DNA from: Chitinophagaceae bacterium
GTDB lineage: Bacteria; Bacteroidota; Bacteroidia; Chitinophagales; Chitinophagaceae
Length of the DNA stretch: 48,398 nt
NCBI GenBank assembly: GCA_027486835.1
Contig: JAIXOJ010000092.1
Span: 1-48,398, forward strand
Reading direction: 5' to 3'
Of this stretch, positions 23,544 through 43,619 are shown piece by piece (positions within the stretch are counted from its first letter, which is position 1; each line of letters begins with the position of its first letter). Below the pieces are notes generated by a model that saw only the letters and a program-made list of their open reading frames with translations, was not told the DNA's origin and made no database searches. The translations under genes and the position numbers were made by a program.

Positions 23544-24149
23544 TTATTCAGCTGGTTCGTTTGAACTAACGACAGCAGCATCATCTGTAGATGCTGTATT
23601 CTCTTCAACAATTGAATCATCAGTAGCCAATTCATCAGTCGCATCTACAACTTCGTCAGTTGCTATCACTTCTGAATCAGTAGCTACTACCTGAGCATCA
23701 CCAGTTTTTTTAGAACGTCCACGTCTAGTACGTTTAGTGGTTTCTGCTTCACTTGCAGCTTCAACACCATATACCTCATTGAAATCTACCAATTCAATAA
23801 GTGCTTTTTCAGCGTTATCACCAGGACGAGTACCTAGTTTAATAATTCTAGTATAACCGCCAGGGCGTGATGCAATTTTAGGAGCAACAACAGTAAATAA
23901 TTCCTTTACAGAATCTTTGTTTTGCAAATAACCAAACACAATTCTGTGTTGGTGCATGATTACTTCTTTACTGCTAACTTTCTTTGTTTTGGTAATTAGG
24001 GGTTCCACATATGTTCTTAAGGCTTTAGCCTTAGCTAAAGTGGTCACAATTCTTTTGTGAATGATTAATTGTGAAGCTAAATTACTCAAGAGGGCTTCTC
24101 TGTGAGCCTTTTTTCTACCTAAATTGTTGATTTTGTCTCCGTGACGCAT
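23544..24149 (-). CDS. rplQ: 50S ribosomal protein L17 with acidic C-terminal extension
   Basis: A 201-residue protein. The first ~118 residues are canonical L17 ([55 protein letters not shown]). A basic patch [10 protein letters not shown] at about 140-149 is followed by a roughly 50-residue acidic, threonine- and valine-rich tail with repeated ATDE/ATD units. E. coli L17 stops near residue 127. Extensions of this type are common in Bacteroidota L17. The gene follows rpoA by 80 bp and is last in the operon. Confidence 0.97.
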
Positions 24150-24229: not shown

Positions 24230-25228
24230 TTAGTCCAAATTGTCTAATCCCATTTTGGGTAAGTCCATACCAAAGCTTAAACCTCTTTCAATAAGTACTT
24301 GCTCAATTTCAGAAAGTGATTTTTGACCAAAGTTTCTGAATTTCATCAAATCTTCTTGCTCGTATTGAACAAGTTCACTTAATGAATTGATTTTAGCTGC
24401 TTTTAAGCAATTGAAAGCCCTAACGGACAAATCTAGATCTTCAAGTGGTGTCTTAAGCACCTTTCTTAAAACAAGAATTTGTTCGTCAATCACGTCATCT
24501 TTCTTTTCCTCTTTAATATCAAAAGTGATATTTTCATCGGTAATGATCATCAGATGCTGAATCAAAATTCTTGATGCTTGCTTGATGGCTTCCTCTGGGT
24601 GGATTGTTCCGTCAGTGGTAACGTTCAAAATAAGCTTTTCGTAGTCAGTCCTTTGTTCCACACGATAATTCTCAATAGCATACTTTACATTCTTGATGGG
24701 AGTATGGATGGAATCTATAGAAATGAAACCGAAAGTGCTATCCTTTACTCTATTTTCTTCAGCGGGGACGTAACCTCTGCCTTTAGAAACAGTAATTTCA
24801 ATATCAATTTTAGAAGCAATGTCCATAATACAGATGTTTAAATCTGGATTCATTACTTTAAAATGCTGGGATGCTTCCCCAATCAATTTCGCATTAAAGT
24901 CAGTACGACCTTTAATAGAAAGATTAATCTTTTCAGAATAAATATCGATGTCGGTAATTTTCTTGAACCTTACTTGTTTGAGGTTCAAAATTATTTCAGT
25001 TACATCTTCAGTTACCCCGTGTATCGTTGCAAATTCATGATCAACACCATCTATTTTGATTCCGGTGATGGCATAACCCTCAAGGCTATTAAGTAATACT
25101 CTACGAAGTGCATTACCAATGGTAAGACCATATCCTGGTTCAAGTGGTCTGAATTCAAACTCACCATCAAAATCAGAAACTTTTTGTAGAACAATCTTAT
25201 CAGGCTTCTGGAAATTTAATATAGCCAT
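24230..25228 (-). CDS. rpoA: DNA-directed RNA polymerase subunit alpha
   Basis: A 332-residue alpha subunit. The N-terminal assembly domain (EPGYGLTIGNALRRVLLNSLEGYAITGIKIDG) dimerises and nucleates beta and beta' binding. A linker follows at about 235-255. The C-terminal domain (LSVRAFNCLKAAKINSLSELV, then FGQKSLSEIEQVLIERGL) contacts DNA and activators. It lies in its usual place between rpsD and rplQ. Confidence 0.98.
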   Translation of the reverse strand: MAILNFQKPDKIVLQKVSDFDGEFEFRPLEPGYGLTIGNALRRVLLNSLEGYAITGIKIDGVDHEFATIHGVTEDVTEIILNLKQVRFKKITDIDIYSEKINLSIKGRTDFNAKLIGEASQHFKVMNPDLNICIMDIASKIDIEITVSKGRGYVPAEENRVKDSTFGFISIDSIHTPIKNVKYAIENYRVEQRTDYEKLILNVTTDGTIHPEEAIKQASRILIQHLMIITDENITFDIKEEKKDDVIDEQILVLRKVLKTPLEDLDLSVRAFNCLKAAKINSLSELVQYEQEDLMKFRNFGQKSLSEIEQVLIERGLSFGMDLPKMGLDNLD

Positions 25229-25307: not shown

Positions 25308-25913
25308 CTATTTAGAATACAACTCTACGATAAGTTGTTCCTTGATATTTTCAGGAACATTTTCCCTTTCTGGATAAGTAATGAAAACACCTTTTAATTC
25401 AGTATCATTCCAATCAACCCAGCTAAATTTTGGATTTTTTCCTCTTTTCTTATTAAGAATTGAATCGTTAATTGCACTTTTATTTCTGTAAGTAATTACA
25501 TCCCCAGGTTTGCAAGAATAAGATGGGATGTTCATTACATCGCCATTTACAGATATGTGCTTATGTGCCACTAATTGTCTTGCCTCTGATCTTGATGCAG
25601 TTAATCCAAGCCTGTAAATAGTATTATCTAACCTAGCCTCCAACAATTTAATTAGGTTTTCACCTTTTACACCCTTCATCTTAGAAGCCTCATCAAAGGT
25701 CTTTCTAAACTGACGCTCTAATAAGCCGTATGTATATTTTGCTTTTTGTTTTTCCCTTAGCTGTAAAGCGTATTCACCTAATGTTTTACGCTTACGTGTT
25801 GCCCCATGTTGACCAGGAGGGTTGCTATTCTTTGTTAACCACTTACCATTACCGAGAATTGGTTCTCCGTAAATCCTTGAAATCTTTGTTTTTGGTCCAG
25901 TATAACGTGCCAT
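25308..25913 (-). CDS. rpsD: 30S ribosomal protein S4
   Basis: A 201-residue primary 16S rRNA-binding protein. It begins MARYTGPKTKISRIYGEPI, the cysteine-free version of the N-domain. The S4 RNA-binding domain is visible at about 90-155 (RLDNTIYRLGLTASRSEARQLVAHKHISVNGDVMNIPSY). In E. coli S4 represses the alpha operon by binding an mRNA pseudoknot. Here interleaved inverted repeats lie directly upstream (25929-25985), which fits a leader for this gene. Confidence 0.98.
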   Translation of the reverse strand: MARYTGPKTKISRIYGEPILGNGKWLTKNSNPPGQHGATRKRKTLGEYALQLREKQKAKYTYGLLERQFRKTFDEASKMKGVKGENLIKLLEARLDNTIYRLGLTASRSEARQLVAHKHISVNGDVMNIPSYSCKPGDVITYRNKSAINDSILNKKRGKNPKFSWVDWNDTELKGVFITYPERENVPENIKEQLIVELYSK

Positions 25914-25928
25914 ATTGTAATCTAGAAA

Positions 25929-25985
25929 CGATTTTTTATTAATGGTAGTAGATTATTAAAAAATCGCAAAACAAAATCTACTACC
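25929..25985 (-). promoter_or_regulatory. Candidate structured rpsD leader with pseudoknot topology (possible S4 autoregulatory element)
   Basis: In mRNA order, GGTAGTAGATT (25985-25975), an 8-nt loop, CGATTTTTTA (25966-25957), two bases, AATCTACTACC (25954-25944), five bases, then TAAAAAATCG (25938-25929), ending 15 bases before the rpsD start codon. Arm 1 pairs with arm 3 (11 bp) and arm 2 with arm 4 (10 bp), both perfectly. Crossing pairs of this order define an H-type pseudoknot or two alternative hairpins. The 5-nt loop crossing 11 bp would be tight, so an either/or switch is also plausible. Control by S4 is inference. Confidence 0.55.
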
Positions 25986-26019
25986 GCTACTATTAATTTA
26001 ATGAAATATTGTAAGCCTA

Positions 26020-26430
26020 TTATACACGTCTAGCTTTAGGCGGACGGCAACCATTGTGTGGCATAGGTGTAACATCCTTTATAGAAGTAACTTCAATTCC
26101 GCTTTGAGTAAGAGATCTAATGGCACCCTCTCTTCCAGAACCAGGCCCTTTTACAAATACATCCACTCTTTTTAAACCTGCATCAATTGCAACTTTTGCT
26201 GCATCAGCAGCTGCCATTTGAGCAGCATAAGGAGTATTCTTTTTTGAACCCCTGAATCCCATTTTACCAGCAGAAGACCAAGAAATAACTTGTCCTTGCT
26301 TGTTAGTGATAGAAACAATGATATTGTTAAAAGTTGCACTAATGCGTACTTCTCCCGAAGCTTCTACTTTTACAATTCTCTTTTTCGCAGCGACTTTAGC
26401 ACTGTTTTGAGCCTTTGATGGTTTGGCCAT
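26020..26430 (-). CDS. rpsK: 30S ribosomal protein S11
   Basis: A 136-residue small-subunit protein of the platform. Clear family sequence from residue 25: [41 protein letters not shown], then [15 protein letters not shown] and the C-terminal [17 protein letters not shown]. The basic, lysine-rich N-terminal ~20 residues vary among relatives. It is separated from rpsM by 117 bp that include a terminator-like hairpin. Confidence 0.98.
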
Positions 26431-26496
26431 AATTTTAGGTAATCTTATAAAAATTAAAAAATGCCCCTATCTTTCATTAAGAAAGGTCTGGTGGCT

Positions 26497-26536
26497 AAAA
26501 AAAGAATTATCCAGCATTTTTCAATGTGGATAATTC
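26497..26536 (-). terminator. Terminator-like hairpin with U-run between rpsM and rpsK
   Basis: On the minus strand, GAATTATCCA (26536-26527) pairs perfectly with TGGATAATTC (26513-26504), followed by seven U (26503-26497). It starts 11 bases after the rpsM stop. The stem is low in GC, so read-through is likely. It may serve as an attenuator or processing site rather than a full terminator. Confidence 0.55.
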
Positions 26537-26547
26537 CAATATAATTA

Positions 26548-26928
26548 CTATTTCTTAGCAGCTTTTTTCTTTCCAGCAACGGTTTTACGTTTACCTTTTC
26601 TAGTTCTGCTGTTTGTTTTGGTTCTTTGACCCCTAACAGGAAGACCTTTTCTGTGTCTTAGACCTCTATAACATGCGATGTCTAATAATCGCTTAATGTT
26701 CATTTGGGTTTCACTCCTTAAAGCACCTTCAACCTTAAATTCAGCATTAATCAAATTTCTGATGGCTGTTTGCTCATCATCATTCCATTGATTTACTTTC
26801 TTGTCAAAAGAAATACTCGCTTTGGTTAAGATTTCCTTTGCTCTACTCCTTCCAATTCCGTAAATATAGGTTAGCCCTATTTCGCCTCTTTTATTTTTTG
26901 GTAAGTCTATACCGGCAATACGTGCCAT
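26548..26928 (-). CDS. rpsM: 30S ribosomal protein S13
   Basis: A 126-residue protein of the small-subunit head that contacts the P-site tRNA and L5. Family hallmarks are [29 protein letters not shown] at the start and [31 protein letters not shown] at the end, with a lysine-rich tail. It follows rpmJ and precedes rpsK in the usual order. Confidence 0.98.
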
Positions 26929-26970
26929 AAACTGATTAAATTTTTATTATTAAAACCTATGTAATGATTA

Positions 26971-27087
26971 CTATCCTTGTCTTTGTTTATATCTCGGATT
27001 CTTTTTGTTGATTACATAGAGTTTACCCTTTCTCTTAACTATTTTACAGTCGGCACTACGTTTTTTTATTGCTGCTCTAACTTTCAT
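26971..27087 (-). CDS. rpmJ: 50S ribosomal protein L36, zinc-ligand-free type
   Basis: A 38-residue protein starting [20 protein letters not shown] and ending NPRYKQRQG. Standard L36 binds zinc through three Cys and one His (C11, C14, C27, H33 in E. coli numbering). Here only C14 remains and the other positions are S11, N27 and Y33, so zinc binding should be lost. This C-minus form is usual in Bacteroidota. The gene lies between infA and rpsM. Confidence 0.97.
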
Positions 27088-27155
27088 TCTATGTTATTTA
27101 GCTATTTCTTCTATTAAAAAATGATGAAACAAAATTTGAACTGAAAAATCTAACA

Positions 27156-36214: not shown

Positions 36215-36477
36215 AATGTTTTGCTTCGCCAATGATTATTTTGGCTGATGTAGGGGTGTTTAGCAAGGATTATTCTTGATTTATTTGCTTTTAGGCCTTT
36301 GAACACTTTTAGAAGAATGGGATAAATCAATGCTCTTGTAATCACACGCAGATAAATTTTGTGTTTACAGATAATGAACCGCTCGAATTAACCAACTACC
36401 CAAATAGAAAGAGCTTAACTATTTCAATTGCCTTAATGCACATCATCCATCACGCCAAAATTTAAAAAGAAAAAAAC

Positions 36478-36581
36478 TGTGACAAATAATTTGTGACATT
36501 TTAAAATGACACAAATTATTTGTCACAAAATTGTGTCATTTTTTTTGTGACATTTTTATTTGTCACAAAATTTATGTCACT
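36478..36581. repeat. Ordered array of eight TGTGACA-type heptamers in two mirrored quartets
   Basis: Heptamers start at 36478 and 36492 (TGTGACA), 36507 (TGACACA), 36521 (TGTCACA), 36532 (TGTGTCA), 36546 (TGTGACA), 36561 (TGTCACA) and 36575 (TGTCACT). The start-to-start spacings are 14, 15, 14, 11, 14, 15, 14. Each quartet is therefore site-7-site-8-site-7-site, with the last two inverted relative to the first two. The first quartet (36478-36527) is an inverted repeat with 24 of 25 positions pairing. It may be an operator cluster about 290-400 bp upstream of gldA, or a structural element. Confidence 0.75.
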
Positions 36582-43468: not shown

Positions 43469-43516
43469 GAAAAGGTTCGTGCTATTTATGCCGCTCTCAT
43501 TTAATCTATGGATAAT

Positions 43517-43557
43517 AAAAAGCCTCCCAAACGAGTGTATTGTTTGGGAGGCTTTTT
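43517..43557. terminator. Bidirectional intrinsic terminator
   Basis: Perfect 16-base arms AAAAAGCCTCCCAAAC (43517-43532) and GTTTGGGAGGCTTTTT (43542-43557) with a 9-nt loop, with T-runs on both strands. It lies between the convergent EamA gene and galE and can end both transcripts. Confidence 0.92.
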
Positions 43558-43619
43558 TAATAGTAAACATTTAAATTAGGACATGATACTCCAACCTAGA
43601 ACAGCTTTCAAGGGAAGAT

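Follow-up and report, generated by a model that had tools for sequence, protein, structure and literature searches.

A 57-nt RNA element directly upstream of rpsD, the gene for ribosomal protein S4, was identified in a 48,398-nt stretch of DNA from a member of the Chitinophagaceae (hereafter the window), and we consider it probable, at roughly 0.7, that the element is an autoregulatory operator bound by S4, a triple-helix H-type pseudoknot before rpsD that would lower the expression of rpsD, rpoA and rplQ. Its four arms follow one another in the order 1-2-1'-2' and form a perfect stem 1 of 11 bp and a perfect stem 2 of 10 bp (Table 1). The structure lies within the 106-nt spacer between rpsK and rpsD; stem 1 begins 34 nt past the rpsK stop codon, which ends at position 26020, and 15 nt separate the last paired base from the ATG of rpsD (25913). 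The original prediction, made from the letters of the window alone, had given the coordinates and lengths of the two stems, their interleaving and the 15-base gap to the S4 start codon, all of which are exact on the mRNA strand, and it had correctly placed the structure beside rpsD and ahead of rpoA-rplQ, as the element stands directly 5' of rpsD-rpoA-rplQ.

Table 1. Parts of the element and surrounding genes in the window
Feature	Positions	Strand	mRNA sequence	Remarks
Stem 1, 5' arm	25985-25975	minus	GGUAGUAGAUU	covaries with 3' arm (E<0.05 for six pairs of stem 1)
Loop 1 (8 nt)	25967-25974	minus	UUGUUUUG	U-tract proposed to line the deep groove of stem 2 as a third strand
Stem 2, 5' arm	25966-25957	minus	CGAUUUUUUA	outer pairs covary, inner U's nearly invariant
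Loop 2 (junction, 2 nt)	25955-25956	minus	AU	median 3 nt in 85 relatives
Stem 1, 3' arm	25954-25944	minus	AAUCUACUACC	assigned by sequence and covariation
Loop 3 (5 nt)	25939-25943	minus	AUUAA	would cross the shallow groove of stem 1; median 7 nt in 85 relatives
Stem 2, 3' arm	25938-25929	minus	UAAAAAAUCG	five A-tract columns are A in 111-113 of 113 sequences
rpsD (ribosomal protein S4)	25308-25913	minus		ORF; proposed to be regulated by its own product as repressor
rpoA	24230-25228	minus		ORF; downstream in the same gene run; named by sequence recognition, without family search
rplQ (L17)	23544-24149	minus		ORF; downstream in the same gene run; named by sequence recognition, without family search
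rpsK (S11)	26020-26430	minus		ORF; upstream gene; named by sequence recognition
rpsM	26548-26928	minus		ORF; named by sequence recognition

Between positions 23544 and 30148 of the window the minus strand carries, with gene names assigned by recognition, thrS, infC, infA, rpmJ (about 26970-27090), rpsM, rpsK, rpsD, rpoA and rplQ in this order, and infC adjoins infA without rpmI-rplT behind it. No intrinsic terminator was found in the region 25850-26500. One sigma-70-like match in the same region was no more than shuffled sequences yield and was not used as evidence; a sigma-70-like promoter is not the promoter type of the phylum Bacteroidota. A frameshift pseudoknot was also rejected, because the element is located past the stop codon of rpsK.

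To score the structure, we employed a descriptor that takes the best H-type pseudoknot in the 110 nt upstream of rpsD, the score being a sum of stacking terms and containing no free energy of the knot. The window gave a score of -31.9, which was reached by none of 300 dinucleotide shuffles (shuffle mean -9.9). When the descriptor was run over 3220 overlapping 110-nt tiles on both strands of the window, three other sites scored slightly better than the rpsD element, and the ordinary nested fold did not differ significantly from that of shuffled sequences (z -1.67, matched by 12 of 200). Because of these three better tiles and the unremarkable nested fold, one genome alone is suggestive only and the comparative evidence decides. 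The three tiles, located at 36439-36578, 43471-43610 and 1861-1970, are perhaps strong hairpins.

By using the rpsD protein of the window as query, rpsD was located in 143 of 147 Chitinophagaceae genomes, and a match to the window's rpsK protein adjoined rpsD in 286 of 288 loci from several families. The comparison comprised a Chitinophagaceae set (119 of 152 genus and family genomes with an rpsD hit), a class set (86 of 115 genomes outside the family) and an order set (26 of 51 genomes outside the family with an rpsD hit). With a cut of at most 3 of 300 shuffles, 96 of the 119 Chitinophagaceae rpsD upstream regions passed the descriptor test, against 1 of 86 from other families of the class; with a looser cut of at most 15 of 300 the counts were 111 of 119 and 5 of 86, respectively. 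A descriptor score below -15 was less discriminating, being found in 113 of the 119 Chitinophagaceae regions yet also in 12 of the 86 class controls. None of the 26 regions from the order set passed, the lowest shuffle count there being 4 of 300. The same shuffle test on named records, which overlap with the main samples, was passed by 61 of 67 near and 0 of 13 far records. The descriptor test is also passed by L129, L166 and L160, the rpsD upstream regions of Sediminibacterium, Chitinophaga and Flavihumibacter, respectively. Among the 96 passing regions, 85 had the homologous stem 2 as the best solution and in 9 the descriptor chose another stem 2; the rest are a duplicate (L063) and one region (L116) that passes without the conserved tracts. 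On inspection the element was missing in 4 of the 119 Chitinophagaceae genomes (L091, L097, L115 and L116).

We also built a covariance model, R1, from 55 sequences with stem 1 as its structure. In the window's own genome R1 gave one strong match of 58.6 bits, the next being 23.8 bits. A match directly 5' of rpsD with an E value of 0.0025 or better was obtained in 38 of 40 Chitinophagaceae genomes representing 40 genera, many of which had contributed sequences to the model; the two exceptions were G026 with no match and G042 with only a weak one located elsewhere. Across 296 genomes of the phylum, 11 had a match, comprising 10 of the 11 Chitinophagaceae members listed and one weak match outside the family (L334, E 0.007), which does not adjoin rpsD. 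These large scans were run with stricter filters, so that weak relatives could be missed. No convincing relative was found outside the Chitinophagaceae, neither in the order sample of 26 nor in the phylum scan of 296 genomes, and the element looks like a family-level invention of the Chitinophagaceae tied to rpsD. Poor conservation in relatives, which the original prediction had named as a point that would tell against it, was not what we found. Two family genomes of 2.8-2.9 Mb from the genus g15 (G026 and G124; loci L209 and L097) lack the element, and their spacer upstream of rpsD is only about 50 nt long. Their short spacer represents either a loss or an earlier state, and can be compared with the retained form.

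To determine if the two stems covary, 113 sequences were aligned with MAFFT without pairing information, after leaving out L025 and L063 (identical to others) and the four sequences found by inspection to have no element. Covariation was assessed with a script that resembles R-scape but is not R-scape, employing a G-test with average-product correction and a null in which substitutions are placed anew along an rpsK tree of 112 taxa (L033, which has no rpsK, was left out). In this pairing-blind alignment seven column pairs were significant at E<0.05, six of them in stem 1 and one in stem 2. The significant stem 2 pair is formed in 76 of 112 rows, the reason being that the alignment lets stem 2 shift along its own U-tract; each arm was therefore anchored on its own run, at the base before the U-run and at the base after the A-run, again with no pairing information. 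In the anchored columns the nine top-ranked pairs were all stem pairs and seven were significant at E<0.05. The first anchored stem 2 pair is formed in 111 of 113 sequences (A-U 86, C-G 19, G-C 6) and the second in 112 of 113 (G-C 102, A-U 7, U-A 2, G-U 1). Pairs 3 and 4, which count against the stem, are formed in just 76 and 49 of the 113, respectively.

Changes from one pair to another were counted on the branches of the tree from one parsimony reconstruction. For stem 2, double changes fell on 14 branches at pair 1 (one-sided changes on 5), on 7 at pair 2 (one-sided on 2) and on 10 at pair 3 (one-sided on 36). The best stem 1 pair had 28 branches with double changes and 3 with one-sided changes, and other stem 1 pairs had more one-sided changes, up to 51. 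In the stem 1 rows of a further alignment, 86.4% of the cells were paired and 10 of 12 pairs had changed on both sides. Over nine stem 1 pairs, 135 cells were G-U and 13 were A-C, which establishes the rpsD mRNA as the functional strand. When the arms of the 96 passing sequences were exchanged, the values of stem 1 went from -11.96 (own) to -4.12 (swapped) kcal/mol and those of stem 2 from -6.19 to -1.89 kcal/mol, and own arms beat all 40 swaps in 53 of 96 sequences for stem 1 and in 23 of 96 for stem 2; this comparison is partly true by construction, because the descriptor had picked the arms for pairing, and our conclusions do not rest on it. The compensatory pairing of both stems is well supported. 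The original prediction had proposed looking for such changes in related genomes, and they are present in both stems when judged against a tree-based null, so that absence of covariation cannot be held against the structure.

Loop 1 of an H-type pseudoknot passes through the deep groove of stem 2 in parallel to the 3' arm of that stem, which is the geometry for U.A-U Hoogsteen triples; where such pseudoknots contain a triple helix, telomerase RNA included, the loop 1 pyrimidines run in parallel with the stem 2 purine strand. In the Chitinophagaceae element the outer pairs of stem 2 vary but its inner half remains U-A, and a U-tract is present in loop 1; the near-invariant columns of the 113 sequences are U in 112, 113 and 113 for loop 1 and U in 113, 112 and 113 for stem 2. 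Loop 1 exceeds its minimum length and has about one residue for each stem 2 pair. The length of the loop U-run correlates with that of the stem A-run (r 0.49 after tree correction, p 4e-8, 111 contrasts), the value for the directly paired runs being r 0.58.

A base exchange at the proposed contact was observed in three sequences, L365, L366 (the same as L192, a Flavipsychrobacter MAG) and L367 (the same as L124), where the fourth loop U is replaced by C and the in-register stem 2 pair has C-G in place of U-A, when pairs are counted along the A strand starting at the junction. In the tree L365 and L366 stand together (0.993), whereas L367 stands with another g97 genome (0.836) outside the clade (0.938) that holds L365 and L366, and unchanged relatives adjoin each of the variants. 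Since the three sequences fall into two lineages, this threefold change arose at least twice, unless it was transferred. A search pattern left free at both sites fits 60 of 203 distinct upstream regions: 54 have U with U-A, 3 have C with C-G, and the remaining 3 have U with U and a partner outside the reading of the pattern; a half-changed combination occurs in none of the 60. Single-change matches were seen elsewhere in the family scan (L338, L368, L369, L370 and L380), and among those checked none adjoins rpsD. An antiparallel Watson-Crick pairing of loop 1 with the 3' arm of stem 2 would not predict the C/C-G exchange. A C+.G-C triple needs protonation near neutral pH. Several sequences are misfits to a full triplex, namely L184 (loop UUCG with an uninterrupted A5), L189 (AUUU), L120 (two loop U's) and six sequences with more loop U's than A's. 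Taking these sequence patterns together, we consider it likely that the U-tract of loop 1 forms a major-groove triple helix with stem 2, made of U.A-U and in places C+.G-C triples. The wider proposal, that the operator of a ribosomal protein is itself a major-groove triple-helix pseudoknot with natural U.A-U/C+.G-C covariation and that S4 would recognise or clamp the triplex, is more tentative, and we place its odds just short of even. No earlier case of a triple-helix ribosomal-protein operator with base-triple covariation was found in the literature searched.

The two stems might also form in turn. In a two-state switch, stems 1 and 2 would be alternative hairpins that expose or hide the start region of rpsD, and S4 or the transit of ribosomes would choose between them. 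Either hairpin can form in the window, with -14.1 kcal/mol for hairpin 1 alone and -6.0 kcal/mol for hairpin 2 alone, and further pairs, in competition with stem 1, can lengthen stem 2 in the window. On the other side, the two perfect stems have no bases in common, whereas alternative hairpins normally overlap, and the triplex signature requires loop 1 to lie on the stem 2 of a formed knot. The loops bear on both readings. In the 85 homologous solutions the median lengths were 8, 3 and 7 nt for the three loops, 11 bp for stem 1 and 9 bp for stem 2, with a median AUG distance of 15 nt. Based on ideal straight A-form geometry and its phosphate positions, loop 1 must bridge about 16 A over 9 bp of stem 2, a distance that it can cover in all 85. 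Loop 3 must bridge about 44 A over 11 bp of stem 1, equivalent to about 6.2-7.3 nt, and spans the full stem 1 in 41, 67 and 69 of the 85 relatives at 6, 6.5 and 7 A per nt, respectively. It is thus too short at 6.5 A per nt in 18 of 85, and the 5-nt loop 3 of the window covers, in the ideal geometry, only 6-7 of the 11 stem 1 pairs, both of which favour the switch. The original prediction had called the crossing loops short and for that reason offered a switch as an alternative; this holds for loop 3 of the window, whereas most relatives have a loop 3 that is long enough. Since loop 3 of the window is too short for the full stem 1, the outer stem 1 pairs would be open there or the helices would bend. 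By this estimate the knot appears feasible in most of the Chitinophagaceae and, with one of these two adjustments, in the window. It is strongly suggested that both stems are formed at once; we prefer the single knotted state, and regard the switch as its main rival and as unlikely. A candidate third stem around the knot, in which UCAUU on the 5' side of stem 1 would pair with AAUGA immediately upstream of the AUG, was noticed in 43 of the 119 Chitinophagaceae upstream regions and was not seen in the window.

Leaders presumed to bind S4 are known from the same phylum. S4-Bacteroidia (RF03139) and S4-Flavobacteria (RF03141) are predicted leaders before rpsD-rpoA-rplQ with S4 as the presumed ligand (Eckert and Weinberg 2020, PMC7247131), and are described there as hairpins unlike each other; the word pseudoknot is absent from the main text of that paper. 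The Chitinophagaceae element shares with them the phylum, the site and the presumed ligand, and differs in being a 57-nt pseudoknot, whereas these two are by the published description hairpins, with models of 34 and 33 positions, respectively. When searched with Rfam, neither the window nor 20 Chitinophagaceae loci gave a match at the gathering score, whereas RF03139 or RF03141 matched 5 of 20 loci of other families (L252, L268, L269, L270 and L277), which served as a positive control. Matches at E values up to 10 (Baculoviridae_NAE, mir-627 and snR46) were rejected as chance. The original prediction had allowed that an S4 leader of this phylum might already be catalogued; this is so for the same place in other families and does not extend to the present element, which those models do not match.

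Two well-studied leaders also differ from the element. The S4 operator of the E. coli alpha operon is described as a complex pseudoknot before rpsM that includes the rpsM ribosome binding site, with S4 as repressor (PMC10931766). Both are mRNA pseudoknots for an operon with rpsD, S4 binding being only proposed for ours, but the Chitinophagaceae element is a simple H-type pseudoknot between rpsK and rpsD, 15 nt before the AUG. The B. subtilis rpsD leader, also repressed by S4 (PMC10931766) and said to imitate rRNA through GUAA (PMC7247131), likewise lies directly before rpsD, but is not a pseudoknot. In common with autogenous ribosomal protein leaders in general, the element is a conserved RNA structure with covariation that precedes the gene for a ribosomal protein known to bind rRNA. 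No description of an S4 leader of the Chitinophagaceae was found in the main texts of the open literature, a scope that takes in few subscription papers. We class the element as an apparently uncatalogued autogenous ribosomal-protein leader, outside RF03139, RF03141 and the E. coli operator family.

S4 is the likely ligand in view of the element's position and of the S4 leaders that have been published for this site in related lineages, and we infer that this protein acts as a repressor. The mRNA of the rpsK-rpsD spacer would fold into an H-type pseudoknot, in the family with a stem 1 of about 11 bp and a stem 2 of about 9 bp, its U-rich loop 1 packed into the deep groove along the U-A part of stem 2 to give a short major-groove triplex. 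Free S4 in excess over 16S rRNA would bind and stabilise the knot, which, about 15 nt before the AUG, would block or stall 30S initiation on rpsD; rpoA and rplQ would be lowered by coupling. A structure at this distance may either hinder the loading of the 30S subunit or hold it in an inactive complex.

Two further functions were considered. The pseudoknot might enhance rpsD translation by recruiting ribosomal protein S1 or the 30S subunit, or protect a processed mRNA end; the U- and A-tracts are nearly invariant, and according to a review bS1 binds pseudoknots and U- or AU-rich sites with high affinity (PMC10931766). We regard this as improbable, because the element is confined to rpsD and, with hardly an exception, to one family, as expected of a gene-specific operator and not of a general enhancer, and because predicted S4 leaders stand at the same place in related lineages. 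It is highly improbable that the element is an operator for L17 or S11, or binds a small molecule in the triplex in the manner of the SAM-V and guanidine-III riboswitches, although these riboswitches are known to fold as H-type pseudoknots containing a triple helix (PMC6061858, PMC5696562): the strong R1 matches in Chitinophagaceae genomes stand beside rpsD, no Rfam riboswitch matched the window or the 20 Chitinophagaceae loci, and S4 is a primary rRNA binder and an autoregulator elsewhere (PMC10931766). SAM-V and guanidine-III bind metabolites and the telomerase RNA fold works in telomerase, whereas the Chitinophagaceae element is a leader to a ribosomal protein gene, and its presumed ligand is a protein. 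If the S4 operator reading is true, the element would be a case of protein-gated regulation by a fold whose other known examples are SAM-V, guanidine-III and telomerase RNA.

S4 autoregulation has arisen anew in several lineages by means of unrelated RNAs, and the Chitinophagaceae appear to hold a further, family-wide and apparently uncatalogued solution. As related lineages have hairpins and the Chitinophagaceae a pseudoknot before the same gene, a single protein can be studied against the several RNA targets that have evolved for it. The exchange at the proposed base triple is a rare case in which a tertiary contact, beyond the helix, can possibly be read from sequence comparison, and motif searches restricted to nested structures can miss such elements.

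Other rpsD upstream regions contain hairpin-like or conserved sequences with no Rfam match. In three genomes of the family f38 of the class (L213, L221 and L261), with spacers of 61-67 nt, a hairpin AAG-AT-C / GATACTT lies directly before rpsD, and its stem shows matching changes across the three genomes; it is possibly another uncatalogued S4 leader. Two genomes of the genus g108 in the family f9 (L246 and L258) have G+C-rich hairpin-like sequences in the rpsK-rpsD spacer. Three loci of the genus g138 (L228, L240 and L242), with spacers of 101-105 nt, carry a conserved element resembling GCCGTCCC..GGGATTGGAGTTG..CAACTTAAATAATA before rpsD, which is a candidate leader.
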